Shown one piece after another: positions 1 through 20,260 of a DNA stretch of 64,000 nt (position 1 is its first letter; every line of letters begins with the position of its first letter). Both the position numbers and the translations under genes were made by a program. The stretch lies in contig CAMVAJ010000001.1 in NCBI GenBank assembly GCA_947165425.1, positions 89,663 to 153,662 on the forward strand, read 5' to 3'. The notes under the pieces were generated by a model, which searched no databases, was not told the origin of the DNA, and saw only the letters and a list, made by a program, of their open reading frames with translations. Source of the stretch: an uncultured Clostridia bacterium. Its GTDB lineage: Bacteria > Bacillota > Clostridia > Christensenellales > Aristaeellaceae.

Positions 1-1377
1 GACACGGTCGACGCGGCGCCTGACGCCGGCCAGTTGATCGAGATGCTCCCGGAGGGGGAGGATACTGTGCCGGCCTTTGATGAGAGCGATCTGGACGACA
101 CGGTTCCTGCCTCCGATGCGGAGCTGGACGATACCGTGCCGCCGACGGGCGATTCAAAGCTGGAGGATACCGCGGAGGAAGACACGCTGGAGGAGGACAC
201 GGCGGAGGAGGAAGCTCCTGTTTACGAGGAGCACGTCATGCTGGACGATGACCCGGAGCAGGCGCACGGCGTGGCGTTGCTGGACGGAAACGATCAGAGC
301 CAGTATACGCCCTCCTACGGAAGTCCGTACTCCAAACCGGACGAAGGAATCAACTACTGGACCATGCCCATGGATATCACGGACGAGGATGCGGTATGGA
401 ACATGCTTATGCAGCCCATGACCGTACTGGATATCGGCGGCAAAAACGCCCAGCGCGCGCAGATCACTATCCGTTCAGAGCCGCACGAGAGCGCGGAGGG
501 CGTCGGTGTGGTGACCTGTGTCAGCCAGGGCGTGCACGTGCTGGCGCAGCAGGGGGACTGGACGCTGATCGAGTGCTATTCCTCCTCGTTCCATGACAGC
601 AAAGTCAAAGCCTGGAACCGGTTGGTCCAGGGCTGGGTCCCTTCAAAATATCTCAAGACGGTCAAGCCTGACGATAAAATGGGCATTGTCGTGGATAAAC
701 TGACCCAGCGCCTCTATCTGTTCATGGACGGCAAGCTGACTGCGACGCTGCTGGTCTCTACGGGTCTGCCGAACGCCAGACAGCCGTACAACGAGACGCG
801 CTCGGGCGAATTCATGATCGTCTCGGCTGTGGGCACTTTCAACAGCGATAATCTTGTCTGCGGCTATGCGCTGCGCTATAACAGCGGCGACCTTTTGCAC
901 GAGGTGCCCTATATCAAGGGCAGAGACGGAACCAAAAACTACGCCTCCGCGGAGAAAAAGCTCGGCACCCGCGCCAGTCACGGCTGTATCCGTACCCAGC
1001 GCAAAACCTATCCCAACGGGATCAACATGCGCTGGCTGTGGGATAACCGCAGGATGAACACAAAGCTGGTCATATGGGAGGACTGGCAGGGGAGGCAAAT
1101 TCTTCCGCCGTCGGACGACACGCTTCTGTACTACAATCCCAAGGGCGGGAACGCCTACCATTCCCACGAAACCTGCTATTCCGCGAAGGGCAAGACCTTC
1201 GAGCCCTTCACATACGGCGAGCTTGAGGATGAAGAGTTCAGAAAACTGGAGCGGTGCACCTTCTGCACCCCGCCGCTGCGGCTGGACGAGATCGCGGAGA
1301 TCAATCAGAATTACTATCCGGGCGGAGATCATCAGCCGGTCATCACGGAAGCCTGGGCCAAGCTGGGCCTGGATTGA
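1..1377 (+). CDS. L,D-transpeptidase (YkuD family) with acidic repetitive N-terminus, SH3-like segment and Cys-containing C-terminal tail; 5' end truncated by window
   Basis: Frame is open from base 1; YkuD signature ASHGCIRTQRKTYPNG; repeats of DDTVPA/EDTAEEDT at the N-terminus; C-terminal YYNPKGGNAYHSHETCYS...CTFC motif. Confidence 0.85.
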   Translation, partial: DTVDAAPDAGQLIEMLPEGEDTVPAFDESDLDDTVPASDAELDDTVPPTGDSKLEDTAEEDTLEEDTAEEEAPVYEEHVMLDDDPEQAHGVALLDGNDQSQYTPSYGSPYSKPDEGINYWTMPMDITDEDAVWNMLMQPMTVLDIGGKNAQRAQITIRSEPHESAEGVGVVTCVSQGVHVLAQQGDWTLIECYSSSFHDSKVKAWNRLVQGWVPSKYLKTVKPDDKMGIVVDKLTQRLYLFMDGKLTATLLVSTGLPNARQPYNETRSGEFMIVSAVGTFNSDNLVCGYALRYNSGDLLHEVPYIKGRDGTKNYASAEKKLGTRASHGCIRTQRKTYPNGINMRWLWDNRRMNTKLVIWEDWQGRQILPPSDDTLLYYNPKGGNAYHSHETCYSAKGKTFEPFTYGELEDEEFRKLERCTFCTPPLRLDEIAEINQNYYPGGDHQPVITEAWAKLGLD

Positions 1378-1457
1378 GGGCTTGGCTGCGGCCGCGCTTG
1401 CGCGGCAATGTGAGCAAACCCGTTCTGAGCATTGTAAAAAACAGAGATTGAACAGCT

Positions 1458-2165
1458 ATGAACACGGTTGACATTGTAATCCTGATCATTGTAGGGCTGA
1501 GTGTCCTCTTTGGCCTGTACAGAGGATTCGTCTCCTCTGTGTTTTCAACGGGCGGATCGCTGATCGCGTTTGGCGGCTCTTTCTTCCTCTACCCAAAGCT
1601 TGCCGCGCTGATCCAGTCCAACCCGTCGCTTCAGCGGACCCTGCTGAGCTATACGGACGCGGAGCGCCGACTCGGCGATTTGAGCCTGGGCCTGAAAAAG
1701 GTCGCAGACCTGACCCAGGGCGAGATTTCACAGATTGTCGAGCGCGCCAATCTGCCTTCTGTTTTCGGCAAGCTTCTCCGATCCAACCTGGAAAACGAGA
1801 TCTTCACGGGAATCGACAGCGTGACGGACTATGTCAGCGAAACCATCGTTTCCGCGTGCATCAACATTCTCTGCTTTATCGCGGCGTTTGTCATCATCTA
1901 TCTGGCCCTGTCCCTGCTGATGAGTCTGATCCGGGCGATCGTCAAGCTGCCGGTGCTCAAGCAGATGGACGCGGTGCTGGGCGGGCTTTTCGGAATTCTG
2001 CGCGGCGTACTCTTTGTCTATGTGCTCTTCACGCTGGTGCCGATGGTGGAGACGATCGTGCCGTTGGATGCGGTGACGAGGCTGATGGCGGAATCCCATC
2101 TGGCAAATCTGTTTTCCTCCGGCGCGCTGATTACCGCCATCATGAACGGCAGCCTGTTTGGCTGA
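1458..2165 (+). CDS. CvpA family membrane protein
   Basis: MNTVDIVILIIVGLSVLFGLYRGFVSSV N-terminus and multiple TM helices, typical of CvpA. Confidence 0.8.
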   Translation: MNTVDIVILIIVGLSVLFGLYRGFVSSVFSTGGSLIAFGGSFFLYPKLAALIQSNPSLQRTLLSYTDAERRLGDLSLGLKKVADLTQGEISQIVERANLPSVFGKLLRSNLENEIFTGIDSVTDYVSETIVSACINILCFIAAFVIIYLALSLLMSLIRAIVKLPVLKQMDAVLGGLFGILRGVLFVYVLFTLVPMVETIVPLDAVTRLMAESHLANLFSSGALITAIMNGSLFG

Positions 2166-2217
2166 CTCCTGGAATATGCAAAGCAGTTCGGTTAGATTGG
2201 ACGATGGAGGAGAAGCC

Positions 2218-2625
2218 ATGGCGGACATTCATCGCAAGGCGGTTGAGCAGGTCATCCACGCCAGCCTGGAGGAGGAAGCGGAGGTCTGCGGCTATCTGCA
2301 TGTGCACGAGGACGCGGTGACACGGGTTCAATTGCTTCTGCCCGATGACACGACCCTTTCCAGGCTGAGCGAGCTATTCAAGGTTTTTGGGGATGCCACG
2401 CGGATTCGTATCCTCTATGTGCTGTTTGAGGAGGAGGTCTGCGTCTGCGATATCGCGACGCTGCTGGGCATGACGCAGAGCGCCGTCTCGCATCAGCTGC
2501 GCGTACTCAAGCAGGCGAGACTGATCAAAAGCCGCCGCGAAGGAAAGACCGTTTTCTACTCCCTGTCGGACGACCATGTGCGAACGCTCCTGTCGAACGG
2601 CACGGAGCATATTGAGGAAGAATAG
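2218..2625 (+). CDS. ArsR/SmtB family metalloregulator (CadC/CzrA-like)
   Basis: wHTH FGDATRIRILYVLFEEEVCVCDIATLLGMTQSAVSHQLRVLKQARLIKSRREGKTVFYSL; ATG at 2218 preceded by GGAG. Confidence 0.85.
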   Translation: MADIHRKAVEQVIHASLEEEAEVCGYLHVHEDAVTRVQLLLPDDTTLSRLSELFKVFGDATRIRILYVLFEEEVCVCDIATLLGMTQSAVSHQLRVLKQARLIKSRREGKTVFYSLSDDHVRTLLSNGTEHIEEE

Positions 2626-2718
2626 TTGATCATCGGGCGCGTTTCACAGAGCGCGGCGGGGACTCAACAGCGTTTCTTTTTTGTGACATAAGCCCTTTTC
2701 TTTCGAGGGTTTGTGTGA

Positions 2719-2724
2719 TATAAT
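2719..2724 (+). promoter_or_regulatory. Probable -10 element (TATAAT) for the fba gene
   Basis: TGTGATATAAT upstream of an aggagg RBS and ATG 2759; no clear -35. Confidence 0.4.
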
Positions 2725-2758
2725 CGTTTCAGTCCCAAAATCGAAGGAGGTAATTCCC

Positions 2759-3724
2759 ATGGCCATCGTCACCACTACCGAGATGTTCCGCAAGGCTTAT
2801 GAGGGCGGTTATGCCATCGGTGCTTTCAATGTCAACAACATGGAGATCGTCCAGGGCATCACCGAGGCCGCCAAAATGGAGAACGCGCCGGTGATCCTGC
2901 AGGTCAGCAAGGGCGCCCGTGCCTATGCCAACCACACCTATCTGGTGAAGCTGGTGGAGGCGGCGGTCATCGAGACAGATCTGCCCATCGCGCTGCACCT
3001 GGATCACGGCCCCGATTTCGAGACCTGCAAGAACTGCATTGACGGCGGTTTCTCCTCTGTCATGATCGACAAGAGCGGTCTGCCCTTCGAGGAGAATGTC
3101 CGGATTACCAAGCAGGTTGTTGAGTACGCGCATGACCACGGCGTGGTCGTCGAGGCTGAGCTGGGAACCCTGGCCGGCGTCGAGGACGATGTGAAGGTCT
3201 CCGCCGAGGATTCCTCCTATACGCATCCGGACGAGGTTGAGGAGTTCGTGACCCGCACGGGCTGCGACTCTCTGGCCATCGCCATCGGCACCTCCCACGG
3301 CGCTTATAAGTTCAAGCCCGAGCAGTGCACCCGCAACGCCGACGGCATCCTGGTGCCCCCGCCGCTGCGCTTCGACGTGCTGGAGGAGGTCTCCAAGCGT
3401 CTGCCCGGCTTCCCGATCGTGCTGCACGGCTCCTCCAGCGTTCCGCAGGAGTTCGTCAAGATCATCAACGAGAACGGCGGCGCGCTGCCGGACGCGGTGG
3501 GCATCCCCGAGGAGCAGCTCCGCAAGGCCGCTTCCATGGCTGTCTGCAAGATTAACATCGACTCCGACCTGCGCCTGGCCTTCACCGCGATGATCCGCAA
3601 GCACTTCAACGAGCATCCGGATCATTTCGATCCCCGTCAGTACCTCACCGAAGCTCGCGCCGCGCTGCGTGACATGGTTCGCCATAAGATCGTGGACGTG
3701 CTGGGCTGCAACGGCAAGGCCTGA
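2759..3724 (+). CDS. fba: Class II fructose-1,6-bisphosphate aldolase
   Basis: HLDHGPDFETCKNCIDGGFSSVMIDKS and VLHGSSSVPQEF motifs; GGAGG RBS before ATG 2759. Confidence 0.9.
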   Translation: MAIVTTTEMFRKAYEGGYAIGAFNVNNMEIVQGITEAAKMENAPVILQVSKGARAYANHTYLVKLVEAAVIETDLPIALHLDHGPDFETCKNCIDGGFSSVMIDKSGLPFEENVRITKQVVEYAHDHGVVVEAELGTLAGVEDDVKVSAEDSSYTHPDEVEEFVTRTGCDSLAIAIGTSHGAYKFKPEQCTRNADGILVPPPLRFDVLEEVSKRLPGFPIVLHGSSSVPQEFVKIINENGGALPDAVGIPEEQLRKAASMAVCKINIDSDLRLAFTAMIRKHFNEHPDHFDPRQYLTEARAALRDMVRHKIVDVLGCNGKA

Positions 3725-3763
3725 TCGCGTTCATCCCGGGATACTTAACAATTGTCCAGAACT

Positions 3764-3798
3764 GAAAGCCGCACTCTCCGATGGAGGGCGCGGCTTTC
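3764..3798 (+). terminator. Stem-loop after fba
   Basis: GAAAGCCGC...GCGGCTTTC inverted repeat with extended CTCTCC/GGAGGG pairing; weak T-tract. Confidence 0.55.
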
Positions 3799-3858
3799 AG
3801 AAAACATACGGCTTCACAGCCTTTGTGGATCAGTTTGCGCTTTGAATGGGGAAGACCG

Positions 3859-4596
3859 ATGAACCGGAATGAATTCTATGATGCCAAGAGCATTACAGCG
3901 CTGGATATCAATCTGGCCTGGGCGACGCTCGAACTGCTGACCGACGATGTGGAGGATATCCAGCTCCTGATCTCCGGAAACGAGGAAGATGTGGACGAGC
4001 TGAAGGTCAGCGTGAACGACGGCAAATTAACCATCGAGCAGCCTGCCTATGGCCTGACGACACATATCACCATGGTGCGGTGGATGCAGGTTATGCTGCG
4101 TCTGCCCAGCGTGTGGAAGGGGGTCATCGAGGCCTCCACGGTCGCGGGCCCGCTGCGCGCCAGAGGCCTGACCGGCTCGGATCTGACCCTGACCACCGTC
4201 TCGGGAGATCTGCTGGCCTCGGATTTGAGCGCGATTGTCATGCACGTCCGAACGGTTACCGGCTGTCTTACGCTGCGCACAGCGGGCGCTGAGACGCTCA
4301 AGGCGCGCACGGTCTCCGGCGATTTCCGCTTAAGCGAGGGCGATTTCCGGAAGATCACCGTCAATGGCGTCAGCTCCGATCTTCGGATCGACCTTGCCAC
4401 GGTTTTTGAGCAGATGGATGCCACGACGGTCGCGGGCGATATTATGATCTACGCGCCCACCCGGGAGGCAAATATCAGCCTCCGAAGCGCAACGGGAAGA
4501 CTTCGCACCAGTGAGGTGTCTATCACAGACGAGGGCCCGGTTTTAAATGTGGTGACGGTGTCCGGGAACCTGACGGTGTCCGGGAAGAACCTGTAA
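3859..4596 (+). CDS. DUF4097-type beta-strand repeat protein
   Basis: Repeating pattern (ARTVSGDFRLSEGDF, TVAGDIMI, SATGRLRTSEVSI, TVSGNLTVSG) typical of DUF4097/adhesin-like beta-helix proteins. Confidence 0.65.
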   Translation: MNRNEFYDAKSITALDINLAWATLELLTDDVEDIQLLISGNEEDVDELKVSVNDGKLTIEQPAYGLTTHITMVRWMQVMLRLPSVWKGVIEASTVAGPLRARGLTGSDLTLTTVSGDLLASDLSAIVMHVRTVTGCLTLRTAGAETLKARTVSGDFRLSEGDFRKITVNGVSSDLRIDLATVFEQMDATTVAGDIMIYAPTREANISLRSATGRLRTSEVSITDEGPVLNVVTVSGNLTVSGKNL

Positions 4597-4634
4597 GAAA
4601 TTAATAATCAAGTCTTTACTTGGAGGTTACAGCG

Positions 4635-4976
4635 ATGGCAAGGCCCAACTTCGGAGGATTCGGCGGAGGCGCCAACATGCAGCAGCTGATGCGACAGGCG
4701 CAGAAGATGCAGCAGCAGATGACGGATATGCAGCAAAAGCTCGAGGAGAAATCCTACGAGGCGGCCAGCGGAGGCGGCATGGTGAAGGTCACGGTCAGCG
4801 GCAAGCGCGAAATCACCGCGGTCAGCATCGATCCGCAGGTAATTGATCCCGACGACAACGAGATGCTTGAGGATCTGATCAAAGCGGCTGTGAATGAAGC
4901 GCTGCGCAAGCTGGACGAGGATCGCGAATCCTCGATGGGGAAGATGCTGCCCACCGGCATGGGAGGTCTTTTCTGA
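4635..4976 (+). CDS. YbaB/EbfC family nucleoid-associated protein
   Basis: NMQQLMRQAQKMQQQMTDMQQKLEEKSYEAASGGGMVKVTVSGKREITAVSIDPQVI; adjacent to recR. Confidence 0.92.
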   Translation: MARPNFGGFGGGANMQQLMRQAQKMQQQMTDMQQKLEEKSYEAASGGGMVKVTVSGKREITAVSIDPQVIDPDDNEMLEDLIKAAVNEALRKLDEDRESSMGKMLPTGMGGLF

Positions 4977-4979
4977 GCC

Positions 4980-5579
4980 ATGGCGGGAAGCATTGAACCC
5001 ATTGCGAATATGACGGCCGCGCTGAGCCACCTGCCCGGCATCGGCCCCAAGAGCGCGCAGCGTCTCGCGTACCATATTGCGACCATGCCGCTGGAAGAGG
5101 TTCGCAATCTTGCGACAACGATTTGGCAGAGCCGCAAGAATATCCGTTTCTGCCAAAAATGCGGCAACTACACCACCGGCGAGCTCTGTGAAATCTGTGC
5201 GGACGATAGGAGAAGCACGGAGCAGATCTGCGTGGTTCGTGATCCGCGCGACGTATCGGCCATCGAACGGATGCATGAATTCCAGGGCGTCTATCACGTC
5301 CTGCAGGGAACGCTCTCGCCGATGGACGGGGTCGGGCCTGAGGATATCCGCATTCGGGAGCTGATGGAACGTCTGCGGGAGAATCACGTTCAGGAGGTCA
5401 TCCTGGCCACCAACCCGGATGTGGAAGGCGAGGCGACGGCAACCTATATCGCCCGGCTGATCAAGCCGATGGGAATCCGGGTGACCCGGATCGCGCACGG
5501 CATTCCGGTGGGCGCGGATCTGGAATACGCAGATGAGGTCACGCTCTCCCGCGCGATGGAGGGCCGGCGTGAGATGTGA
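4980..5579 (+). CDS. recR: Recombination mediator RecR
   Basis: [19 protein letters not shown], zinc finger [16 protein letters not shown], Toprim domain [18 protein letters not shown]. Confidence 0.95.
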
Positions 5580-5605
5580 TGGCCATCAAAAGAAGGGAAT
5601 GACGA

Positions 5606-6859
5606 ATGTCGGAGCGCACGCTTGAGCTGGCTATATTGACAGTGGCGGTTGGCCTGATCGCTGTCGCTTTTATCCTTCTGCTCGTGCTCCTGCGGCGGTA
5701 TGCAGGGCTTTCGGCACAGAATCAGCGGCTGGAAACGCTGATCAATCAGGTTGCTGACGAGCTTCTCGACGCAATGGACGCCAGACAGCAGGAAACCCGC
5801 GAAAGCCTCCGGGACGCGCTCAGCCAGCAGGCTCAGCTCAACCAGGCGGTATCCGCTGAGCTGACTGCCATGATCGAGACGGCGCGACAGCTCGACGCCC
5901 GCATGGAGCAGCTCCGCCAGGGCATGCACGCGATTCGCCAGGAGAACAGCCAGCAGCTGACAGAGATGAGGCAGACGGTGGACGAGAAGCTCTCAGAGTC
6001 TCTGGACCGCCGTCTTACCCAGAGCTTTGACCAGATCAGCAGGCGCCTGGAGGCCGTCTGGCGCGGACTGGGGGAAATGCAGACGCTGGCCGCGGGCGTG
6101 GGCGATTTGAAGAAAATGCTGACCAACGTCAAGACGCGCGGCGTTTGGGGCGAGATTCAGCTTGGCGCGCTGCTCGAGGAGATGCTCTCCCCTGAACAAT
6201 ACACGCTGAACGCCTGTGTGAAGGCCGGCAGCCAGGAGCGCGTTGAGTTTGCGATCCGGCTCCCGGGCCGGGATGGAAGCGAGATCCTGCTGCCGATTGA
6301 CAGCAAATTCCCACAGGAGGATTATCTGCGCCTGCAGGAGGCAGTGGACCGGGGAGATACGGCCGCGGCGGACGCCTGCCGGAAAGCCCTCAGCCAGCGC
6401 ATCCGGAGCGAGGCGAAGCGCATTGCCTCGAAATACATTCTGCCGCCCGCCACAACCGATTTCGCGGTGATGTTTCTTCCGATCGAGGGACTGTATGCGG
6501 AGGCGGTTCGCGAGAGCGGCCTGACTGAGGAGCTTCAGCGAACCTATCGCGTGACGGTCGCCGGTCCGACCACCCTCTCCGCGCTGCTCAACGCGCTGCA
6601 GATGGGATTCCGGACGCTGGCCATCGAGCAGCGCTCCGGGGAGGTTTGGCGCTTGCTCGGAGAGGTCAAGGAGGATTTCGGCCGATTCGCGGAGAACCTG
6701 GAGAAGACAAGGCTGCGGCTGCAGCAGGCGAGCGATTCCATTGACAGCGCGGTCTCGCGGACGCAGTCCATTCGCCGCAGACTCAGCGCGGTTGAGTCAG
6801 AAGCTTTACCCCAAACCTATCCGTCAGATGATGCGCAGAAGGAGACACATGATGCGTGA
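5606..6859 (+). CDS. rmuC: DNA recombination protein RmuC
   Basis: N-terminal TM, coiled coil, RmuC core (RGVWGEIQLGALLEEML, LPIDSKFPQEDYLRL, FLPIEGLYAEAV). Confidence 0.92.
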   Translation: MSERTLELAILTVAVGLIAVAFILLLVLLRRYAGLSAQNQRLETLINQVADELLDAMDARQQETRESLRDALSQQAQLNQAVSAELTAMIETARQLDARMEQLRQGMHAIRQENSQQLTEMRQTVDEKLSESLDRRLTQSFDQISRRLEAVWRGLGEMQTLAAGVGDLKKMLTNVKTRGVWGEIQLGALLEEMLSPEQYTLNACVKAGSQERVEFAIRLPGRDGSEILLPIDSKFPQEDYLRLQEAVDRGDTAAADACRKALSQRIRSEAKRIASKYILPPATTDFAVMFLPIEGLYAEAVRESGLTEELQRTYRVTVAGPTTLSALLNALQMGFRTLAIEQRSGEVWRLLGEVKEDFGRFAENLEKTRLRLQQASDSIDSAVSRTQSIRRRLSAVESEALPQTYPSDDAQKETHDA

Positions 6860-8312
6860 ATTGCTTTCGCTCATCAATTTCGACAATCAGACCAGCCGAT
6901 CCGTAGCGCGGAAGCTTCGGGCTGAAGGGTATTTTTGCCTCGTCGGCGCGGCGGACTCCTCGGCGGAACAGTCCCTGGACGGTGAGATCAAGGGCCTTGT
7001 GCTGTGCGGAGGATCCACGGGCCAGCCGATTGCGATCCCTAATTTGCCGGATTATCTCTCCTCCGGGCTGCCGCTGCTCGCGCTGGGCGACGCGGCGCTG
7101 ACACTGTGCCGCTACTGGAATGGGGAGACCGCTCCGTTCTCGGACCAGCCCCAGGCCGTGCAGATCGCTTTTGACCGAAACGATCCGCTGGTGGGGAAGA
7201 TTGACCAGAGCGAGCGGTATTTGCCCGCGCCCACCGAAATGCGTCCCGGTTCAAATTGCCGTGTCATCGCCACCTGCAATGATCACGTTCTCGGCATCGC
7301 GTCCGCAGAGTCTCCCGTCTTCGCGCTGGCGTTTCAGGTGGAGAACAACGATCCGGACGGGGCGTACATCCTCGTGCAGTTTGCGGACCAGATCTGCCGC
7401 TGTACGCCCTGGTGGAGCGAGAGCGCCTACATCGATATGGCGGTTGAGGAGATCCGCATGGCGGCCGAGGGTGGAGACGGCTTATGCGCCATTTCGGGCG
7501 GAATTGACAGCGCGGTGTGCGCTGCGCTGGGCGCGAAGGCGTTGGGTGACCGCATGTACTGCCTGTTTGTCGATACCGGTCTTCTCCGGATCGGCGAAGC
7601 CGACGATGCAATCCGGAACATCCAGACCATCCCCGGCCTGCGCGTCCTCCGCGTGGATGCGCGGGAGGAATTCCTGCAGGCGCTGGAGGGCGTCAGTGAT
7701 CCGGCTGAAAAGCAGCTCATTGTCTACTCCCGGCTGCGCGCGCATATGCGGCATCAGGTCAGTCAAATGGAGAATGTCCGGGTCATTCTGCAGGGAACCA
7801 ACTATTCAGATGTGTTTGGCCGCAACATCTCCTTGAAAACAGAGCTGCCCTCGGCGCGTGTGAGGCTCTTGGAGCCGGTGAGGTATCTCTTCAAGGATGA
7901 GATCCGTCGCATCGGGGAAGCGCTTGGACTGCCTGAGAGCTTATGCCATCGCCAGCCTTTTCCCTCGGCGGGTCTTGCGCAGCGCATCTATTCAGCCATC
8001 ACGGCGGAACGTCTGCGGATCCTGGGGGAGGCCGATCAGATCCTTCGCGAGGAGATCGAGGGCGGAGGCTACAATAAAAGGCTGTGGCAGTATTATGCCA
8101 TGATGGCGGATGACCCAATCCCCGGAGACAACGGCTATATCGTGCTGCTGCGCGCGGTGCAGGCCATGGAAAGCGGCGCGGTATCGGCCCGTCTGCCTGC
8201 GGATGTCGTCGAGCGGATCGCCTCGCGCATCCTTAAGAGCGAGCCGCAGGTGCGGCGCGTTCTGTATGACCTGACTCCGTCTCACACCTATGGGCGCGTC
8301 GAATGGGGCTGA
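6849..8312 (+). CDS. GMP synthase (GuaA)-like protein with degenerate glutamine amidotransferase domain
   Basis: PP-loop SGGIDSAV, LFVDTGLLRIGEAD, LQGTNYSDVFG, RQPFPSAGLA, C-terminal VLYDLTPSHTYGRVEWG; GATase nucleophile-elbow Cys absent; RBS spacing slightly favours ATG 6852 over 6849. Confidence 0.82.
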   Translation: MMRELLSLINFDNQTSRSVARKLRAEGYFCLVGAADSSAEQSLDGEIKGLVLCGGSTGQPIAIPNLPDYLSSGLPLLALGDAALTLCRYWNGETAPFSDQPQAVQIAFDRNDPLVGKIDQSERYLPAPTEMRPGSNCRVIATCNDHVLGIASAESPVFALAFQVENNDPDGAYILVQFADQICRCTPWWSESAYIDMAVEEIRMAAEGGDGLCAISGGIDSAVCAALGAKALGDRMYCLFVDTGLLRIGEADDAIRNIQTIPGLRVLRVDAREEFLQALEGVSDPAEKQLIVYSRLRAHMRHQVSQMENVRVILQGTNYSDVFGRNISLKTELPSARVRLLEPVRYLFKDEIRRIGEALGLPESLCHRQPFPSAGLAQRIYSAITAERLRILGEADQILREEIEGGGYNKRLWQYYAMMADDPIPGDNGYIVLLRAVQAMESGAVSARLPADVVERIASRILKSEPQVRRVLYDLTPSHTYGRVEWG

Positions 8313-8420
8313 CAACGAATTCTTTTGGCGGGGCATCGAAGCAAAAGCAGGAAAAACCAAAAGAAAAGCGAAAGATATTACTCGGCCGGAGAGCCGTGAA
8401 ATAAAACGGAGGTGCAATCA

Positions 8421-9425
8421 ATGAAAAAGCTCATCGTCCTTGTCCTGGCGCTTGCCATGTCTCTGTCGATCTTCTCCGTTCAGGCGGATACGACGACCAA
8501 GACGCCTTCCATCTGCATCGTTGTCGCCGGCACCCTTGGCGACCGCTCCTTCTACGATTCCGCCAACGAGGGCATTGAGAAGCTTGCGGCTGACTTTGGC
8601 ACGGAGACGAACGTGATCGAGTGCAAGGAAGACGGCTCGCTCTATGAGAACGCGCTGTTTGAGGCCGCGGAACGCTATGATATCATCGCGGCGGTCGGCT
8701 GGCAGTTCTTTGATGCGCTGGCGGATGAGAACGGCGTGCTTGCCGCTTACCCGGACAAGAAATTCCTCTTCATCGATAACGCCCTGGATGCGATCCCGGC
8801 GAATCTGATGTGCATCACCTATGCCCAGAACGAGGGCTCCTTCCTGGCCGGCTATGTTGCGGCCTCTCTCTCCAAGACGGGGGCTGTCGGCGTCGTGGGC
8901 GGCGAGAACGCGGCGACGATCAACGACTTCATCGTCGGCTATGAGGCGGGCGCCAAGTACATTAATCCGAACGCGGTTGTGAAGCGTCAGTATGCCAATA
9001 CCTACGAGGACCCCGCGAAGGGCAAGGAGTGCGCGCTGGCTCTGTACAACGATGGGTGCGACGTGGTCTTTGCGGTGGCCGGCAAAACCGGCGAGGGCGT
9101 CTTCGAGGCCGCCAAAGAGGCCGATAAGCTGGCGGTTGGCGTCGACGGCGATCAGAAGTACATCGATCCGGACCGGATCATCTGCTCGATGGTGAAGCGT
9201 GTCGGCCAGTCTATCTACGACGTGGTCGCCAATCCCGACACCTTCTTCAAGGGCGGCGAGGTCTGGAACGCGGATATGGAGACCGGCTATATCGATGTCG
9301 TCTACGGAACAGAGGATATGCCGCAGCAGGTATCCGATGCGCTCAAGGACGAGGTCGAGACCATCAAGGCCAAGATCATCTCCGGCGATATCATCGTCCC
9401 GACAGCCTTTGCAACCGAGGAGTAA
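8421..9425 (+). CDS. BMP family ABC transporter substrate-binding protein (nucleoside type)
   Basis: BMP family features (GDRSFYDSANEGIEKL, AQNEGSFLAGYVAA, VGVDGDQKYIDPD); followed by BMP-type ATPase and two permeases. Confidence 0.85.
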   Translation: MKKLIVLVLALAMSLSIFSVQADTTTKTPSICIVVAGTLGDRSFYDSANEGIEKLAADFGTETNVIECKEDGSLYENALFEAAERYDIIAAVGWQFFDALADENGVLAAYPDKKFLFIDNALDAIPANLMCITYAQNEGSFLAGYVAASLSKTGAVGVVGGENAATINDFIVGYEAGAKYINPNAVVKRQYANTYEDPAKGKECALALYNDGCDVVFAVAGKTGEGVFEAAKEADKLAVGVDGDQKYIDPDRIICSMVKRVGQSIYDVVANPDTFFKGGEVWNADMETGYIDVVYGTEDMPQQVSDALKDEVETIKAKIISGDIIVPTAFATEE

Positions 9426-9431
9426 ACCATT

Positions 9432-9477
9432 ACAGGCGTCGCAGCCCCAATTCGTGGCTGCGACGCCTGTGTTTTTT
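9432..9477 (+). terminator. Intrinsic terminator after the BMP substrate-binding protein gene
   Basis: 15-bp stem ACAGGCGTCGCAGCC/GGCTGCGACGCCTGT followed by GTTTTTT. Confidence 0.9.
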
Positions 9478-9569
9478 ATTGCCGCCTATGGTCAAAACAG
9501 CCCAAATGTGATAGGATAGGACCATGCAATCAGGATTCCTTTGCTCAGTGTGAGAGGAGTGAGTCAGGC

Positions 9570-11114
9570 TTGTCCGAAATACAGCATCCGCCGATCGTTC
9601 AGTTTTCACATGTCAGCATGCAGTTTCCGGGAGTGCTTGCCAACGACGACGTTACCCTGGACATCCGCCAGGGGGAGGTCTTTGCGCTGGTGGGCGAGAA
9701 TGGCGCCGGCAAATCAACGCTGATGAATATCCTCTATGGTCTGAACACGCCGACCAGCGGGACCGTCAGCGTCAAGGGCAAGCCTGTGGATGAATTCTCG
9801 CCCAGCGCGGCGATCGCGCGCGGCATCGGCATGGTGCATCAGCACTTCATGCTGGTGCCTTCCTTCACGGTCGCGCAGAACATCGTCCTTGGCGACGAGC
9901 CGCGCAAAGGGCTTTTTTATGATTTTGCCAGAACAGATCAGATCGTGGAGGAGCTGGTCCGCGAGTACGGGCTGAAGGTCAACGCCCGGGATCGGGTGGA
10001 GGATATCAGCGTGGGCCTCCAGCAGCGTGTGGAGATCCTCAAAACCCTTCACCGCGGCGCGGATGTGCTGATCCTGGACGAACCGACCGCGGTGCTCACC
10101 CCCCAGGAAACCGATGAGCTTTTTGATGTCATCCGGCGCATCGTCAGGGAAAAGGCTATGACGGTCATCATTATCACGCATAAGCTCTATGAGGTCATGG
10201 CGATCTCTGACCGGGTCGGCGTGATGCGCAGAGGCCAGCTGGTCGGGGTCAGCGAAACAAAGGATGTCAACGAACGGATCCTCGCGTCGATGATGGTGGG
10301 CAAGGATGTCCTGCTGGAGGATCTGGACCGGATCGACGACCACGATGACACGACCGCCATCGAGGTGGAGAACCTGCAGGTTATGGACAATCGGGGTCTT
10401 CCGGCGGTCAGAGGCCTGAGCCTGCACGTCGAGCGCGGCGAAGTACTGGGAATCGCCGGAGTGGAAGGGAACGGACAGAGCGAGCTCATCGAGGCCATTA
10501 CCGGGATGCGCCCGATTCGCGGCGGCACGGTGCGGATCCAGGGCAAGGATATTCGCGGCATGACCACGGGGGAGATTCGGGCGCTCGGCTTGGCCCATGT
10601 GCCTGAAGACCGGCTTTCCACGGGCGTCTCGGCGCAATCGGATATCACAGACAACCTGATCGTGGGCAAGGAGAAGCTGCCGCAATTCTCTCGCGGCAGG
10701 ATCCATCTGCGAAAGCGGAGCATGCGCGCATACGCGCAGCAGCTCTTTGACCGCTACGATATCCGAGGCGCCGGGGTAGACTCGCTGGTCGGCTCGCTCT
10801 CCGGCGGCAATATGCAGAAAGTTGTGCTGGCGCGCGAGTTCTCCTTTGATACGCCTGTGCTCATCATCTCACAGCCGACGCGCGGCGTGGATATCGGCGC
10901 GATGGATTTCATCCATAGACAGATCATGGAGAAACGGAACGCCTCCTGCGCGATCCTGCTGGTCAGCGCCGACCTGGATGAGCTGTACCGCCTGTCCGAC
11001 CGGCTTGTGACCATCTTTGAGGGGAGGATCACGGGAGAGTTTAAGCCCAAGGAAATTGGCAAACAGGAGATCAGCCACTATATGACGGGTGGCGGAAGGG
11101 AGGAGCAGGCATGA
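9570..11114 (+). CDS. Nucleoside-type ABC transporter ATP-binding protein (two NBDs); TTG start
   Basis: Two ABC cassettes (GENGAGKSTLMNILYGL; GIAGVEGNGQSELIEAI; LSGGNMQKVVLAREF), YufO/RbsA-like. Confidence 0.88.
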   Translation: MSEIQHPPIVQFSHVSMQFPGVLANDDVTLDIRQGEVFALVGENGAGKSTLMNILYGLNTPTSGTVSVKGKPVDEFSPSAAIARGIGMVHQHFMLVPSFTVAQNIVLGDEPRKGLFYDFARTDQIVEELVREYGLKVNARDRVEDISVGLQQRVEILKTLHRGADVLILDEPTAVLTPQETDELFDVIRRIVREKAMTVIIITHKLYEVMAISDRVGVMRRGQLVGVSETKDVNERILASMMVGKDVLLEDLDRIDDHDDTTAIEVENLQVMDNRGLPAVRGLSLHVERGEVLGIAGVEGNGQSELIEAITGMRPIRGGTVRIQGKDIRGMTTGEIRALGLAHVPEDRLSTGVSAQSDITDNLIVGKEKLPQFSRGRIHLRKRSMRAYAQQLFDRYDIRGAGVDSLVGSLSGGNMQKVVLAREFSFDTPVLIISQPTRGVDIGAMDFIHRQIMEKRNASCAILLVSADLDELYRLSDRLVTIFEGRITGEFKPKEIGKQEISHYMTGGGREEQA

Positions 11115-12175
11115 AAAGCAAAGAGCGGCAGCAGTATCTGCTCTCGCTTGCGATCAGCGTGATCCTTGCGCTGATGGTCGGCGCGTTGATCATGCTCGCC
11201 ACCGGCCACAATCCGCTGGAGGGGTACGGAGCGCTCGTCAAAGGTGCTTTCGGCACCCGACGCGCCTGGGGCAACACGCTGTACAAATCCTTCCAGCTCT
11301 GCATCACCGGCCTGGCGACGGCCATCGCTTCGAGCGCGGGGATCTTTAACGTCGGCGGCGAGGGCCAAATGTATCTCGGCGCTTTGGCTTCATGCTATCT
11401 GGGCGCCCGCCTCACGGGCGTGTCCCCGTGGCTGGCGCTGCCGGTCTGCTTCCTGGCGGCCATCCTCTCCGGCGCGGTTTATGCGTGGATCCCGGCGGTG
11501 CTGAAGGTCAAGCTCAAGATCAACGAAGTGATCACCACCATCCTGATGAACTCCATCGCGATCTATTTCTGCTCGTATATGGCAAACGGCCCGCTGAAGA
11601 CGATGGAGCGCGGCGTGAATACGGGAACGGACGCCATCGACAAGCTGTTCCGGTTCAACCGGCTGATTCCTGGCTCGAACCTTTCGGAAACCGTATTCTG
11701 GATCGCTGGGATCTCCCTCCTGGTCTGGTATTTGATGAGCGCCACCACCACAGGATATGAAATGCGCCTGACGGGCCAGAATGAACGCTTCGCGCGCTTT
11801 GTCGGCCTGAAGGCGGATCGCCTGGGCATTGCGGGCATGCTCATCTCCGGCGCGATGTGCGGCGCGCTGGGCATGTTTGAGTGCTTCGCACTGCAGAATC
11901 GCTTTAAGCCAGACTTCTCCAGCGAGTTCTACTTCGACGGCATGCTGGTCGCGATGATCATGCGCTACAAGCCCTTTGGCATTATCCTGATGAGCTTCTT
12001 CTTCGGCGCGCTGAAGATGGGCGCAACCGGGATGCAGTCCCAGACCGGGATCTCCTCCGAGCTGATTTTGATCGTGCAGTCGATCATTATCTTCTTCATG
12101 GCGGCTGAGCAGGGGGTCGTCGCCCGCCTTCAGCTGCGAAAGACGCGGCGCGAGCCGATCTCAAAGGGGGGCTGA
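11111..12175 (+). CDS. Nucleoside-type ABC transporter permease (YufP-like)
   Basis: Multi-TM; GIFNVGGEGQMYLGA motif; overlaps the ATPase stop codon. Confidence 0.85.
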   Translation: MKSKERQQYLLSLAISVILALMVGALIMLATGHNPLEGYGALVKGAFGTRRAWGNTLYKSFQLCITGLATAIASSAGIFNVGGEGQMYLGALASCYLGARLTGVSPWLALPVCFLAAILSGAVYAWIPAVLKVKLKINEVITTILMNSIAIYFCSYMANGPLKTMERGVNTGTDAIDKLFRFNRLIPGSNLSETVFWIAGISLLVWYLMSATTTGYEMRLTGQNERFARFVGLKADRLGIAGMLISGAMCGALGMFECFALQNRFKPDFSSEFYFDGMLVAMIMRYKPFGIILMSFFFGALKMGATGMQSQTGISSELILIVQSIIIFFMAAEQGVVARLQLRKTRREPISKGG

Positions 12176-12177
12176 AT

Positions 12178-13080
12178 ATGGACTGGAGCAGTGTTTTCAA
12201 CGCCGGCACCCTGATGAACACCTTCAATACGGCGACGATTGTCATTCTGGCCGGCCTCGGATGTCTCATGACCGAGCAGGCCGGCATGATGAACATCGGC
12301 ATTGACGGGATGATGACGGTGGGCGCCTTTGTCGCCGCGGTTGCCTCCTGGGCCTTTAACTCCTGGGTGATAGGGCTGCTCTGTGCCGTGCTGGCAGGCT
12401 TGCTCACGGGGCTCTTCTATGGCGTCATGGTCGTCCGATATCACAGCGACGAGTTCATTATCGGCGTCGCGTTCAATATTTTCGCCGTTGCGCTGACCAC
12501 CTTTCTTCTCCGCACCGTTCTGTCCCAGAGCGGCTCCTTCCATCCCGCATCGGGCACGGTGCAGAATCTGCCGTATCTGTCCTTCGGCAAAATCGGCGGC
12601 AGTGATATCAACATCTCGCTGATGGTTCCACTGAGCTGGCTGCTGGTGGTGATCGCGCAGGTGTTTATCTACAAGACGCCGGCCGGATTCTGGCTCCATG
12701 CGTCCGGAGAGCATCCGGAGTCTCTGCGCTCGGTCGGACGGAATCCTGAAAAAATGAAGTACATCGGCTCGGTGATCTGCGGTGTGCTGTGCGGCCTTTC
12801 GGGCGCCTATCTGTCGATCGGATACCTCTCCACCTTTACGGAGGGCATGTCCGCGGAGCGCGGCTATGTGGCGGTGGCATGCGTCATCTTTGGCCGCTCC
12901 AACCCGGTGCGCGTATTTCTCGCGGCGCTGCTGTTCGGCTTCATTGACGCGGCGGGCATGCGTATGCAGGGCGTGATCCCGCCGACGCTCACAGCGACCT
13001 TCCCGTATGTCGGGACCATTCTGATGATGGTGCTGCTCGCGCTTCGCAACCAGGCCAAAAAACGCGGAAAGCGCGTTTAA
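12178..13080 (+). CDS. Nucleoside-type ABC transporter permease (YufQ-like)
   Basis: Multi-TM; EQAGMMNIGIDGMMTVGAF, ERGYVAVACVIFGR motifs; directly follows first permease. Confidence 0.85.
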   Translation: MDWSSVFNAGTLMNTFNTATIVILAGLGCLMTEQAGMMNIGIDGMMTVGAFVAAVASWAFNSWVIGLLCAVLAGLLTGLFYGVMVVRYHSDEFIIGVAFNIFAVALTTFLLRTVLSQSGSFHPASGTVQNLPYLSFGKIGGSDINISLMVPLSWLLVVIAQVFIYKTPAGFWLHASGEHPESLRSVGRNPEKMKYIGSVICGVLCGLSGAYLSIGYLSTFTEGMSAERGYVAVACVIFGRSNPVRVFLAALLFGFIDAAGMRMQGVIPPTLTATFPYVGTILMMVLLALRNQAKKRGKRV

Positions 13081-13096
13081 ACGTTTGCTAATCAGT

Positions 13097-13137
13097 CACT
13101 GTATGCTGGCATGATCCCCGCAGCATACAGTGTTTTT
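13097..13137 (+). terminator. Intrinsic terminator of ABC transporter operon
   Basis: CACTGTATGCTG...CAGCATACAGTG stem followed by TTTTTAT. Confidence 0.88.
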
Positions 13138-13184
13138 ATGTCATGGAATATGCCAATCCTGAGGACAAAAGCATGATGCCGCGC

Positions 13185-13213
13185 TTGACGAAAGAATGCT
13201 TCTGTGGTAGGAT
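13185..13213 (+). promoter_or_regulatory. Sigma-A-type promoter for dprA
   Basis: TTGACG - 17 nt - TAGGAT. Confidence 0.6.
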
Positions 13214-13271
13214 ACCGCCGGTGTCTTGAAGCTGTTTTTCTTAAGGAAAACACAAACGTTCAGAATGGAGC

Positions 13272-14387
13272 GTGGATGCTTTGCTGTACAGCCGTGAGGA
13301 CGCCTGCCGCGCCTGGCTGATGTATGCCCGGTGTAGAACGGAGCATCTGACAAGACTCCTGTCGGACTTTGAATCGACAGAGGAGATCTACGACCGGACC
13401 TGCCGCGACGGTGGAAAGACGATCAGCGCTTATCTGCCGCCTGCAGCCGTGAAGCGTCTGGTTCAATTCGCGTCGAGGGATCAGATGCATCAGATGCTGC
13501 TCACCATGCGCAAGCTGGATATGGGCATTCTCTCCTCACAGGACGCGGCCTATTCAGACGCCCTTCGCTCCATCAACGATCCACCGCCGTTTCTGTTCTA
13601 CCGCGGCGAAACCGCGCTGATGTCAGGCAAATGTCTGACGGTGATTGGATCGCGGAAAGCGTCGCCCAAGGGAATCGCCTACTGCGAACAGCTCTGCGAG
13701 GAACTCAGCAATTGCGGCATTGTGATTGTCAGCGGCCTGGCCGTCGGCATTGATACCGCGGCGCACGAGGGAAGCCTGCGGGGAAGAACCCCCTGCATCG
13801 GCGTGATGGCGTGCGGCATGGATCTGGACTATCCAACCGCCTCCGCCCAATTGCGAGAGGATATCCTGCGTTCCGGCGGGCTTCTGCTGAGCGAGATGCC
13901 GCCGGGACAGGGGATATTCCGGGGAAGCTTTCAGTCGAGAAACCGGATTCTTTCAGGGCTGAGCCGCGGCGTGGTCATGATAGAGGCCCGCATCCGCTCT
14001 GGCAGTATGATGACGGTCCACCATGCGCTCGATCAGGGGCGAGAGGTATTCGCCTTCCCCGGCGAGCCGGGAACCACATGGTCGGAGGGCGCGCACCAGC
14101 TGATACGCGAGGGCGCGCGCTACTTTGTCAGCGCGTCGGATCTGCTGGAGGATTTGGGTTGGGAAAAGCCCGAGTCGGAAGAAGCTTTGACGCCGGAAAC
14201 GGAAAAACCAGGGATATCACCGGAAATGCACAGCATTCTGACGGTGCTTCACCGGGGCGAGAAAGGATTTGACGAGCTCGCGCTGGAAACCGGTCTCGAT
14301 ATTCCCGTGCTGACAGCCTCGCTCTCGATGCTGCAGATGTTTGGCTATATCAGAGCCCTGCCCGGCAAGAGCTACTGCGTGATTTAA
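13272..14387 (+). CDS. dprA: DNA-processing protein DprA; GTG start
   Basis: LTVIGSRKASPKG, IVIVSGLAVGIDTAAHEGSL, SGSMMTVHHALDQGREVFAFPG. Confidence 0.92.
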   Translation: MDALLYSREDACRAWLMYARCRTEHLTRLLSDFESTEEIYDRTCRDGGKTISAYLPPAAVKRLVQFASRDQMHQMLLTMRKLDMGILSSQDAAYSDALRSINDPPPFLFYRGETALMSGKCLTVIGSRKASPKGIAYCEQLCEELSNCGIVIVSGLAVGIDTAAHEGSLRGRTPCIGVMACGMDLDYPTASAQLREDILRSGGLLLSEMPPGQGIFRGSFQSRNRILSGLSRGVVMIEARIRSGSMMTVHHALDQGREVFAFPGEPGTTWSEGAHQLIREGARYFVSASDLLEDLGWEKPESEEALTPETEKPGISPEMHSILTVLHRGEKGFDELALETGLDIPVLTASLSMLQMFGYIRALPGKSYCVI

Positions 14388-14478
14388 AAACGACGGAATC
14401 TCATGATCTGAGTGTATCATATCATATCCTGTATTTCAGACATGCAATCGATGTCAATCTTCGGAGGATAGAAAGCAA

Positions 14479-16626
14479 ATGCCAGCATCATCCAAGCAAA
14501 AACTGATTATCGTGGAGTCCCCCGCCAAAGCACGGGCAATCAGCCGCTTCCTCGGGAGCGGATACAAGGTCGAGGCCTCCCAGGGCCATGTTTGCGATCT
14601 GCCCAAATCGCAAATCGGGGTGGATATCGAACATGATTTTGAGCCGAAATATATCACCATTCGGGGACGCGGCGAAATTCTGGCCAGGATCCGCAAGGAG
14701 GCCAAAAATGCCGCGAAAATCTATCTCGCGACAGACCCTGACCGTGAAGGCGAGGCGATCTCATGGCATCTCGCGCATGCGCTCTCGATTCCGGAGAACG
14801 CGGTGTGCCGCGTCGAGTTCCATGAGGTGACCAAAAACGCGGTCAAGAACGCTGTGAAATCGCCCCGTCAGATCAATCTCGACCTTGTGGACGCGCAGCA
14901 GGCGAGACGCGTGCTGGACCGTTTGGTAGGCTATAAAATCAGTCCGCTGCTCTGGGCCAAGATCAGCCGCGGACTGTCCGCCGGGCGCGTACAGTCGGTG
15001 GCGACCCGCATGGTGGTGTCGCGCGAGGAGGAGATTGAGGCTTTTATTCCGGAGGAATACTGGGATATTTCCGCCACCGCGCAAGCAAAGGCCGGCAAGG
15101 CGAAGACCGGATTCAAGGTGCGGATGGTCTCGATTGACGACAAGAAGCTTCCGCTCGCCAACGGCGAGGAGGCGGATGCTGCGGTGAAGCGCCTGAAAAG
15201 CGCGGCGCTCAAGGTTTCCGGGATCAAGAAGGGGGAGAAGCGGAAATCGCCCGCGGCTCCGTTTACGACCTCCAGCCTCCAGCAGGAAGCGGGACGCAAG
15301 CTGAATTTTTCCACATCGAAAACGATGCAGATTGTTCAGCAACTGTATGAAGGCATTGACCTGGCAGGGGAGGGGACGCAGGGCCTCGTCACCTACATCC
15401 GTACCGATTCCGTCAGGATTTCAGACGAAGCGATGGCCGCGCTTCGGGAGTACATTCCATCCAACTATGGGCCGGAGCTTCTGTCGGAAACGCCGCAGAT
15501 CTACAAGGGACGATCCAACGCCCAGGATGCGCATGAAGCCATTCGCCCCACAAGCGTGCTGCGGACGCCGGAGCAGATCAAGGACAGCCTCACCAAAGAC
15601 CAGTATAATCTCTACCGTCTGATTTATCTGCGCTTTGTGGCCAGCCAGATGAAGCAGGCGGTATACGAAACGCTGACCGCTGATATCGAGGGCGACGGCA
15701 TTCAGCTCCGTTTCTATGGGGAGCACAAGGTTTTCCCCGGATTCACGCTGGTTTACGAGGAGAGCATGGACGACGTGAGCGACCAGGCTGCGGAATCCAA
15801 ATTCCCGCAGATTAGCGTCGGGGATGAAATCAGCCTCACGGATGTTGCCTCCGAGCAGCATTTTACGCAGCCGCCGCCCCGCTATACTGAGGCGAGTCTG
15901 GTCCGCGCTATGGAGGAGAAGGGAATCGGGCGTCCTTCCACCTATGCGCCGACGATCTCCACCATTATGAACCGAGGCTATGTGATTAAGGAGAAAAAAC
16001 GCCTGATCCCAACGGATCTGGGCCGAATGATCAACGCCCTGATGGAAAAGTACTTCTCGGATATCGTTGATCTCGATTTCACCGCGGATATGGAGAATCA
16101 GCTTGACGAGATTGAGGAGGGCAAGCGCCCCTGGAAAGAGGTCATCCGGGAGTTCTATCCGCATTTTGCCGCGGATCTCGCCGTTGCGGAGAGCGAGATC
16201 GAAAAGGTTGAGATCAGCGACGAGCCAAGCGATATTCCCTGTGATAAATGCGGCGCGATGATGGTTTATAAAAATGGGCGCTTTGGAAAATTCCTGGCCT
16301 GTCCGAATTTCCCGACCTGCCGCAACACGAAACCGGTTGTGAACTATCTGGCTGCGCCCTGCCCGAACTGCGGCGGCAGACTGATGGAGAAGATGTCCCG
16401 CAAATCCAAACGCAGGTTCTTTGGCTGCGAGAACTTCCCGACCTGCAGCTTTGTGAGCTGGGACGAGCCTGTTGCGGAGCGCTGCGAGAAGTGCGGCAGC
16501 TACATGGTCAAAAAGTACGGCCGAAAAGGCGAAATGTGGCGCGTGTGCACCAATGAAACATGCCGAAATCGCGTAGAGATCACGAGCGTGGAGAGAGGGG
16601 AAATCGACGACGATGCCGACGAGTAA
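14479..16626 (+). CDS. topA: DNA topoisomerase I
   Basis: [28 protein letters not shown], active-site region [15 protein letters not shown]-terminal Cys4 zinc fingers. Confidence 0.95.
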
Positions 16627-17971
16627 GCCCCAGGCGTATGTGATTGGCGCAGGACTGGCCGGCTCGGAGGCGGCATGGCAGCTCGCGCAGCGCGGCGTAT
16701 CGGTCACGCTGTATGAGATGAAACCTCAGACCTATTCTCCGGCCCACCATTCGCCGCTTTTTGCGGAACTCGTCTGCTCCAACTCCCTTCGCTCTGACAG
16801 ATTGACCAATGCGGTCGGCCTGCTGAAGGAGGAAATGCGGCTGTTTGGCTCGCTTGTGATGGCGGCGGCGGATCGTGCGCGCGTCCCCGCGGGCGGAGCA
16901 TTGGCGGTGGACCGCACGCAGTTTTCCGAATACATTACATCGTCTCTGGAACAGCATCCGAATGTCACGATATGCCGCCAGGAGGTCACAGCGATACCGG
17001 ACGGCCCCGTGATTATCGCGACAGGTCCTCTGACCTCTGAGCCCCTGGCGGAGGCCATCGCAGGGCTTCCGGGCCTGGAGACGCTGCACTTCTTTGACGC
17101 GGCCGCGCCGATCGTGACGGCGGATTCCATCGATATGGGGAAGGTTTTCCGCCAGTCGCGTTACGACCGGGGGAGCGATTATCTGAACTGTCCGATGGAC
17201 GAGGAGACCTATCACCGTTTTGTGGATGAACTGCTGAACGCGGAGACGGCTCCGATCCATGGCTTTGAAGAGAACATGGTTTTTGAGGGCTGTATGCCGG
17301 TCGAGTCCATGGCGAGACGGGGGAGGATGTCCCTCGCTTTCGGCCCGCTCAAGCCGGTCGGCTTGATTGACCCCAAGACCGGCAAGGAGCCCTATGCTGT
17401 CGTTCAGCTGCGCCAGGACAACGAGTCCGGTACGCTGTTCAACCTGGTCGGATTCCAAACGAGGCTGAAGTTCCCTGAGCAGAAGCGCGTGTTTGGCATC
17501 ATTCCGGGCCTTGAAAACGCGGAATTTGCCCGATACGGCGTGATGCATCGCAATACCTTTTTGCATTCGCCCGGTTTTTTGAACGCCAACTTTGAAATGA
17601 TATCCCGGCCAATGTGCTACTTCGCGGGTCAAATGACAGGGGTCGAGGGATACGTGGAGAGCGCGGCCAGCGGCCTTGTGGCCGGCATGTCCCTCGCCTC
17701 GCAGCTGACGGGAAGCGCCATGCCCGAACTGTCGGGCATCACAGAGCTCGGCGCAATGGGGCGTTATGTCTCCACGCCCAATCAGCGCTTCCAGCCCATG
17801 AACTGCGCGTTTGGCCTGCTGGATCCGCTGCCGGTGGATAAAGAGCATAAGCGCATACGGAAAAAAGCGGATCGGTATCAGGCAATCAGCGAGCGCTCGC
17901 TGGCCTATCTGAGACAGATTCAACCGTCGCTGGGGATACAAGGTCCGGCGGAATCCGGACAGGAGGAGTGA
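16613..17971 (+). CDS. trmFO: Methylenetetrahydrofolate--tRNA-(uracil-5-)-methyltransferase
   Basis: FAD motif [51 protein letters not shown]; between topA and hslV. Confidence 0.95.
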
Positions 17972-17974
17972 ATC

Positions 17975-18511
17975 ATGAGTCAATTCAAAGGAACGACCAT
18001 CTGCGCCGTGCGCCGCAACGGTGAAACCGCGATCGCCGGCGACGGTCAGATCACCATGGGGGAGTCTGTGGTATTCAAATCCAACGCGCGCAAGGTTCGC
18101 CGCCTTTATGACGGCAAGGTCGTGATCGGATTTGCGGGAAACGTTTCGGACGCTTTCGCGCTGAGCGAAAAATTCGAGGAAAAGCTGACGAAATGCGGCG
18201 GAAACCTTGAGAGAGCCGCCGTTGAGCTTGCCCAATTATGGCGCAGCGATCACGGGATGCGTCAGCTTGAATCCCTGATGATCGCGGCGGACAAGAGCAC
18301 GCTCCTGATGCTGAGCGGAACCGGCGAGGTAATCGATCCCGACGGCGGCGTGGTGGCGATTGGCTCCGGCGGAAACTACGCCCTGGCCGCCGCCCGGGCG
18401 CTGATGGAGAACACCGATCTGAGCGCGCACGATATTGCGGAAAAGGCGCTGAAGATCGCTTCGTCAATCTGCGTATATACCAATGATCATATCATTGTCG
18501 AGGATGTCTGA
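17975..18511 (+). CDS. hslV: ATP-dependent protease subunit HslV
   Basis: [39 protein letters not shown]; precedes hslU. Confidence 0.95.
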
Positions 18512-18528
18512 GAAAGGAGCGGTGCAAA

Positions 18529-19896: not shown

Positions 19897-19898
19897 AT

Positions 19899-19943
19899 AA
19901 CAGCAGCGCTGCACAGGATCAAAGTATGCAGCGCTGCTGTTTA
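19899..19943 (+). terminator. Intrinsic terminator of hslU operon
   Basis: AACAGCAGCGCTGCA...TGCAGCGCTGCTGTT 15-bp stem followed by short T run. Confidence 0.75.
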
Positions 19944-19955
19944 ATGACAAAACAC

Positions 19956-19984
19956 TTGATTTTTAGGGAAATATCTGTTACAAT
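19956..19984 (+). promoter_or_regulatory. Sigma-A-type promoter upstream of structured leader
   Basis: TTGATT - 17 nt - TACAAT. Confidence 0.65.
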
Positions 19985-19990
19985 TTTATT

Positions 19991-20260
19991 GCGCAAAGAT
20001 GCGAGCGGGGGAGTCCTATACTCGACTGGTCGTGCGCATGGAAAAAAGGATCAGTGATCAGGCCTTGTCAGCTGTTTCCGCTCGCAGTAACAGAAACGAA
20101 TGATGACAAGCAAATGGATCCGATTAAATGATTTTCTTCAGAAAGCCCTTCCTTCAGATAAGCTCTCACAGCAAGCTGCAGAATGAGTTGAGTGTGCAAG
20201 GGGAAGGGCTTATACATCCAGACACAACTATTCGCTAAACCATAGTTTTACGAATAGTTG
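19991..20260 (+). ncRNA. Candidate structured leader/ncRNA upstream of tyrosine recombinase (unassigned family)
   Basis: Own promoter; complementary segments TGCGAGCGG/CCGCTCGCA, CTTGTCA/TGACAAG, AAGCCCTTCC/GGAAGGGCTT, AACTATTCG/CGAATAGTT; no convincing ORF. Confidence 0.5.

Follow-up and report, generated by a model that had tools for sequence, protein, structure and literature searches.

The locus at positions 6849-8312 of the window (the whole stretch of 64,000 nucleotides that was analysed) raises the question of what a GMP synthase-like protein does when residues for both glutamine hydrolysis and XMP handling are gone. The coding sequence, which like all its features lies on the + strand, encodes a 487-residue GuaA paralogue, P0001, assigned from its translation, profile scores, alignment and structural model as a putative pseudo-GMP synthetase. 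The ATG at 6849 (or 6852) is a likelier start than the mechanically assigned TTG at 6741, and from there the coding sequence overlaps the last 11 bases of rmuC. Solved GMP synthases align end to end with P0001 (3tqi, E = 8e-63; 7sbc, 5e-61), and identity to GuaA is about 30-35% over the full length. Scored with the NCBIfam models NF000848, TIGR00884 and TIGR00888, P0001 stays below every GuaA equivalog cut-off, reaching 278 bits for the whole protein (cut-off 400), 225 bits for the C-terminal part (cut-off 339) and 18 bits for the GATase part (cut-off 172). Matches to NAD synthase, LarE and other PP-loop families are weaker than that to GuaA (42.5 and 33.6 versus 278 bits). An AlphaFold2 (AF2) model computed from P0001 and 46 homologues has a mean pLDDT of 88 and a pTM of 0.87, and every one of its best Foldseek matches is a GMP synthase (TM about 0.75-0.83), indicating a GMP synthase fold. 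End-to-end alignment and fold bear out the original prediction of a GuaA paralogue; judged from its sequence, P0001 is a full-length, fast-evolving homologue of GuaA, and its clade is a variant of this known family. An Rfam search of window positions 1-20000 gave no match.

The GATase-like domain comprises residues 1-190 (6849-7418), and alignment and model indicate that its glutaminase triad is dead. The former nucleophile elbow reads PLLALGDAALT (residues 74-84, 7068-7100), with Gly80 (7086-7088) in place of the catalytic Cys, and the former FHPEV segment reads QVENNDPDG (residues 163-171, 7335-7361), with Gln163 in place of the triad His. The motifs first quoted for these segments, PLLALGDAAL and FALAFQVENN, lie at residues 74-83 and 158-167. 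The description of the His as lost was correct, but the motif losses are less complete than originally worded, as the Glu of the His-Pro-Glu motif is still present (E165) and so is that of the C-terminal EWE motif (E485). The Cys-His-Glu triad of GuaA is therefore represented by Gly80, Gln163 and Glu165, and with both the nucleophile and the His gone, P0001 is predicted to be unable to hydrolyse glutamine. When 50 paralogues were aligned with 51 full-length and 10 short GuaA sequences, 49 of the paralogues had Gly in the Cys column, two still had the triad His and all retained Glu165. The dead GATase domain itself is retained in 50/50 paralogues, although GATase-free GuaA occurs in the same genomes. 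Besides Gly80, clade-specific residues of the domain are Arg123 (7215-7217; 48/50), Asn167 (43/50) and Asp168 (50/50), and this conservation, combined with universal retention, points to a retained use of the domain.

In the ATPPase domain the pyrophosphate-binding PP-loop SGGIDSAV (residues 216-223, 7494-7517) is intact, and QGTNYSD (residues 315-321, 7791-7811), whose Asp321 corresponds to Pf Asp371, the conserved ATPPase helix LEPVRYLFKDEIR (residues 341-353, 7869-7907) and the segment RQPFPSAGLAQR (residues 368-379, 7950-7985) are all kept; the last includes RQPFPSAGLA (368-377), which like the PP-loop had been correctly located. P0001 thus keeps the PP-loop, Asp321, Lys288, Lys349, Arg353, Arg379 and Arg435. 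At the acceptor (XMP) site, Gln289 (7713-7715) occupies the position of Mj Arg102 and E. coli Arg308, the reader of the xanthine O6 in GMP synthases (PMC10526850). The lid (residues 322-340, 7812-7868) is degenerate, lacks IK(S/T)HHN and has low pLDDT at 326-329; we confirmed both the reported lid replacement ISLKTELPSARV (326-337) and the C-terminal tail SHTYGRVEWG (residues 478-487, 8280-8309), in which Ser478 stands for the XMP-phosphate Lys (Mj Lys302). The loop that reads GVMGDxRTY in GMP synthases is shortened (8106-8138) and has lost the trans Arg, which contacts the XMP phosphate in those enzymes (PMC10526850). Among Mj Arg102, Arg249, Lys302 and Glu308, only Glu308 is kept (Glu485); Arg470, at the position of Mj Arg294, is also kept. 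None of the 50 paralogues has HHN anywhere in its sequence and just three have the trans Arg. The loss of the nucleophile and of the XMP-handling elements, as first proposed, is supported, and a shifted Cys or HHN was rejected given the counts in the alignment.

Published mutants indicate what these losses would entail. Mutants of the lid Lys, His or Asn, and of Lys547, Glu553 and Arg539 (the equivalents of Lys302, Glu308 and Arg294), form little or no GMP even with ammonium, while Plasmodium lid-His mutants retain tight binding of ATP and XMP but do not react (PMC10526850). With the lid Lys/His/His/Asn missing from P0001, together with the Arg that reads O6, the trans Arg and the tail Lys, XMP adenylation should not be possible, and we infer that neither glutamine nor ammonia would let the protein work as a normal GMP synthase.

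Of the 60 genomes of the same GTDB family (G000-G059), 41 carry the paralogue, and so do five genomes from a second family of the order. All 50 paralogues fall on one side of a branch with an SH-aLRT of 99, and in a careful tree of 71 rows the phylogeny suggested at the outset sets them apart from canonical GuaA as a clade with support of 100/99. P0001, with Gly for Cys, no HHN lid and Asp168, belongs to this single clade. A search of the class and phylum with the paralogue-specific pattern ExNDPDG, found in 27 of the 50 members and in no canonical sequence, revealed no member outside the order; besides the window's own genome, five genomes matched, one being G046 of the same family and the other four giving matches that were not GuaA-like. 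As the pattern covers just 27/50 members, absence outside the order is provisional. Candidates on viral contigs scored as ordinary guaA, with no clear paralogue as judged by score, and in a wider scan of genome contigs the retained loci among the matches listed were canonical guaA. Four of the 12 genomes of its own genus, not all of which are complete, have the paralogue, and the two-contig genomes G231 and G331 lack it, which makes it an accessory gene among relatives that are mostly draft genomes. Eight deep members of the clade (e.g., L022, L025) keep the equivalents of Arg102, Lys302 and Glu308 without the lid and so resemble the lid-His mutants that bind ATP and XMP. Ligand binding without catalysis is thus a plausible ancestral state, and by this analogy the deep members suggest how a pseudoenzyme may have begun; the window's lineage is further along, with XMP contacts lost too.

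Members of the clade share a mean pairwise identity of 0.36. Its best conserved elements include the PP-loop (0.65), the LFKDEVR helix (0.65) and the RQPF segment (0.63), whereas the lid (0.12), the trans-Arg loop (0.11) and the C-tail (0.18), with identities of 0.61-0.87 in canonical GuaA, are among the least conserved; the lowest values for any 15 consecutive residues are found for the stretches starting at 324-326. In the window's near clade, where QGTNYSD is fully conserved (1.0), the lid, the trans-Arg loop and the tail have values of 0.22, 0.19 and 0.35. Such variability suggests that the clade abandoned the acceptor site, and a shared replacement is not apparent. Arg24, Glu165, Asp168, Phe178, Gly217, Lys288 and Pro343 are invariant in a 42-member alignment. 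The PP-loop Asp is kept in 44 of 50 paralogues, including P0001, and 47 are acidic at the position of Pf Asp371; the six losses of the PP-loop Asp correspond to about six changes on the tree, and the open reading frames stay intact. Between G000 and G010 the paralogues are 55% identical and the guaA products 86%, with dN of 0.40 versus 0.08 (about fivefold), and dN/dS is about 0.25-0.35 in close paralogue pairs. Across about 40 genera and two families, the open frames of the listed members have no internal stops. By these measures the paralogue is evolving fast under purifying selection.

The canonical guaA that the original prediction had proposed to look for is present in the window's genome, on contig C61, with the Cys, HPE, IKSHHNVGGLP and KPPASVEWE, so that the paralogue is not the sole guaA. 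It groups with the guaA of congeners, which identifies it as native and rules out contamination. The genome also has an IMP dehydrogenase and a short PP-loop-only GuaA (L003 1447-2427, G000:C41) with lid and tail motifs present. Many genomes of the order have, in addition to full-length guaA, a short form of this kind that lacks the GATase domain and has intact acceptor motifs, and one of these (L071, G028:C102) is close to full guaA. The IMP dehydrogenases (G000:C22 and relatives) form two score classes, of about 600-667 and about 340-366 bits (cut-off 481), and the class often differs between genera of the family.

Four canonical-type GuaA proteins carry the Cys to Gly change and keep the lid, trans Arg and tail: L239 (from G242), L240 (G115), L210 (G103) and L144 (JAAYGG010000003.1, Bacillota bacterium AS09scLD_203). 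They are probably natural NH3-dependent GMP synthases, a type that apparently arose more than once. Since their XMP site is intact, loss of the glutaminase does not entail loss of the XMP site, and the second loss in the paralogue is a separate event. A few genomes (G046, G030 and G043) show the paralogue only, as does G040, whose paralogue has lost its PP-loop. Assembly gaps are the likelier cause of the paralogue-only genomes, as these are many-contig drafts in which guaA often lies at contig ends, and as the G040 protein has no PP-loop.

Downstream of the paralogue, 19 of the 51 loci have a GNAT-like gene (about 275 aa; for example L250 3129-3962 (-) and G000:C28:26118-26918), which is directly adjacent in 18 of them. 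This gene is near-universal in the family, including genomes without the paralogue, so the adjacency shows no dependence and a functional link was rejected. Upstream, a MazG-like gene is found in 13 of the 51 loci (directly in 12), a CHAP/peptidoglycan-binding gene lies directly adjacent in 12, and in G036 an IMP dehydrogenase gene directly precedes the paralogue. The neighbours at the window locus are rmuC upstream and a BMP-type ABC transporter downstream (8412-13080), whose genes encode a substrate-binding protein of that type (Pfam Bmp), an ABC ATPase and two permease-like proteins; neither neighbour is conserved beside the paralogue in relatives, and both were set aside. Nucleotide-related neighbours vary among lineages and are absent at the window locus.

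We consider it about an even bet that P0001 is a pseudo-GMP synthetase, an ATP-binding, dimeric, non-synthesising protein in which the old glutaminase pocket has been reused for a ligand or partner. A duplicated full-length GuaA without Cys and His could, on its sequence, no longer hydrolyse glutamine, and XMP adenylation would have been lost with the lid, the O6 Arg, the trans Arg and the tail Lys. ATP would still be bound and dimerisation would proceed through the C-terminal domain, while the former pocket (Gly80, Arg123, Glu165, Asn167 and Asp168) may take another small ligand or partner. It is tempting to speculate that ATP and pocket together form a sensor of nucleotide or nitrogen state or a regulatory partner, possibly of the cell's true GMP synthases. 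What counts against a pseudo-GMP synthetase is that a pure scaffold would need neither the PP-loop Asp nor the acidic residue at Pf Asp371, both of which most members keep. A broader proposal is that a whole GMP synthetase has turned into a nucleotide-binding sensor or regulator within a single order of uncultured bacteria (apparently Clostridia), its pocket reading a new ligand and its PP-loop domain reading ATP, with an output through the true GMP synthase or purine traffic; it is tentative and clearly the less probable of the two. The original prediction had instead envisaged a glutamine-independent ATP-pyrophosphatase acting on another nucleotide or nucleoside. Such a PP-loop ligase or amidase would use ATP to adenylate a new acceptor for attack by free NH3 or another nucleophile, and the kept ATP-site residues, the full conservation of QGTNYSD in the near clade and the MazG-like and IMP dehydrogenase genes directly upstream in some loci are in its favour. 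It should, however, show a newly conserved acceptor site, and we saw none: the acceptor elements are among the least conserved and vary even in the near clade, and the PP-loop Asp was lost repeatedly. The proposed activity is therefore unsupported, and a pseudoenzyme fits better than a new synthetase. P0001, with its PP-loop intact, may still be catalytic, and we regard an enzyme with a new acceptor as the less likely reading.

The two remaining explanations are less likely than either a pseudoenzyme or a new-acceptor enzyme. An ammonia-dependent isozyme that still converts XMP to GMP would agree with the full-length homology to GuaA, with the paralogue-only genomes and with the occurrence in the same order of L239, L240 and L210, which show that loss of the glutaminase alone is tolerated. 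Yet single mutants at several of the lid, trans Arg, tail and O6-reading positions lost in P0001 have little or no activity even when NH4Cl is supplied (PMC10526850), a canonical guaA is present in the same genome, and the paralogue-only drafts are better explained by assembly gaps; we therefore hold this isozyme to be very improbable. A decaying duplicate with no present function would agree with the fast evolution, the recurrent losses of the PP-loop Asp and the patchy presence within the genus, but the uninterrupted frames across genera and families, a dN/dS of about 0.3 and the seven invariant residues make decay improbable as well. A pseudo-GMP synthetase remains our preferred reading.

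About a dozen paralogues exceed the 400-bit NCBIfam cut-off for GMP synthase without the Cys and lid (e.g., G029:C16, G050:C106, G047:C161). Automatic annotation would call them GMP synthase, and misannotation in public genomes is likely. Widespread within one family of uncultured bacteria, the clade offers a natural series, from members with ATP and XMP contacts kept, through those with the ATP site only, to those with neither, which could show which parts of an amidotransferase outlast catalysis. In the literature searched, with subscription journals mostly outside its scope, no GuaA pseudoenzyme was described. Among the closest known systems is GuaA itself, with which P0001 shares the order of GATase, PP-loop ATPPase and dimerisation domains, the PP-loop and the fold (TM about 0.8). 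It differs from GuaA both at the glutaminase, where the triad Cys and His are missing, and at the acceptor site, which has neither the IK(S/T)HHN lid nor the Arg that reads O6, the trans Arg or the tail Lys. The Cys to Gly GuaA proteins L239, L240, L210 and L144 have the same dead glutaminase, but their XMP site and lid are intact and the paralogue clade does not include them. PP-loop-only GMP synthase subunit B (the archaeal two-subunit type, and the short GuaA L003) shares the ATPPase and dimer domains; L003 keeps the lid KAHHNVGGLP, the trans Arg and KPVATIEWE, whereas the paralogue retains a dead GATase domain and has no acceptor site. Human carbamoyl phosphate synthetase CPS1 likewise retains its GATase domain despite loss of the Cys and uses free ammonia (PMC4655335). 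CPS1 (Cys to Ser) keeps its synthetase chemistry, however, whereas the paralogue has lost the acceptor site too, and the synthetase halves of the two proteins belong to different families.
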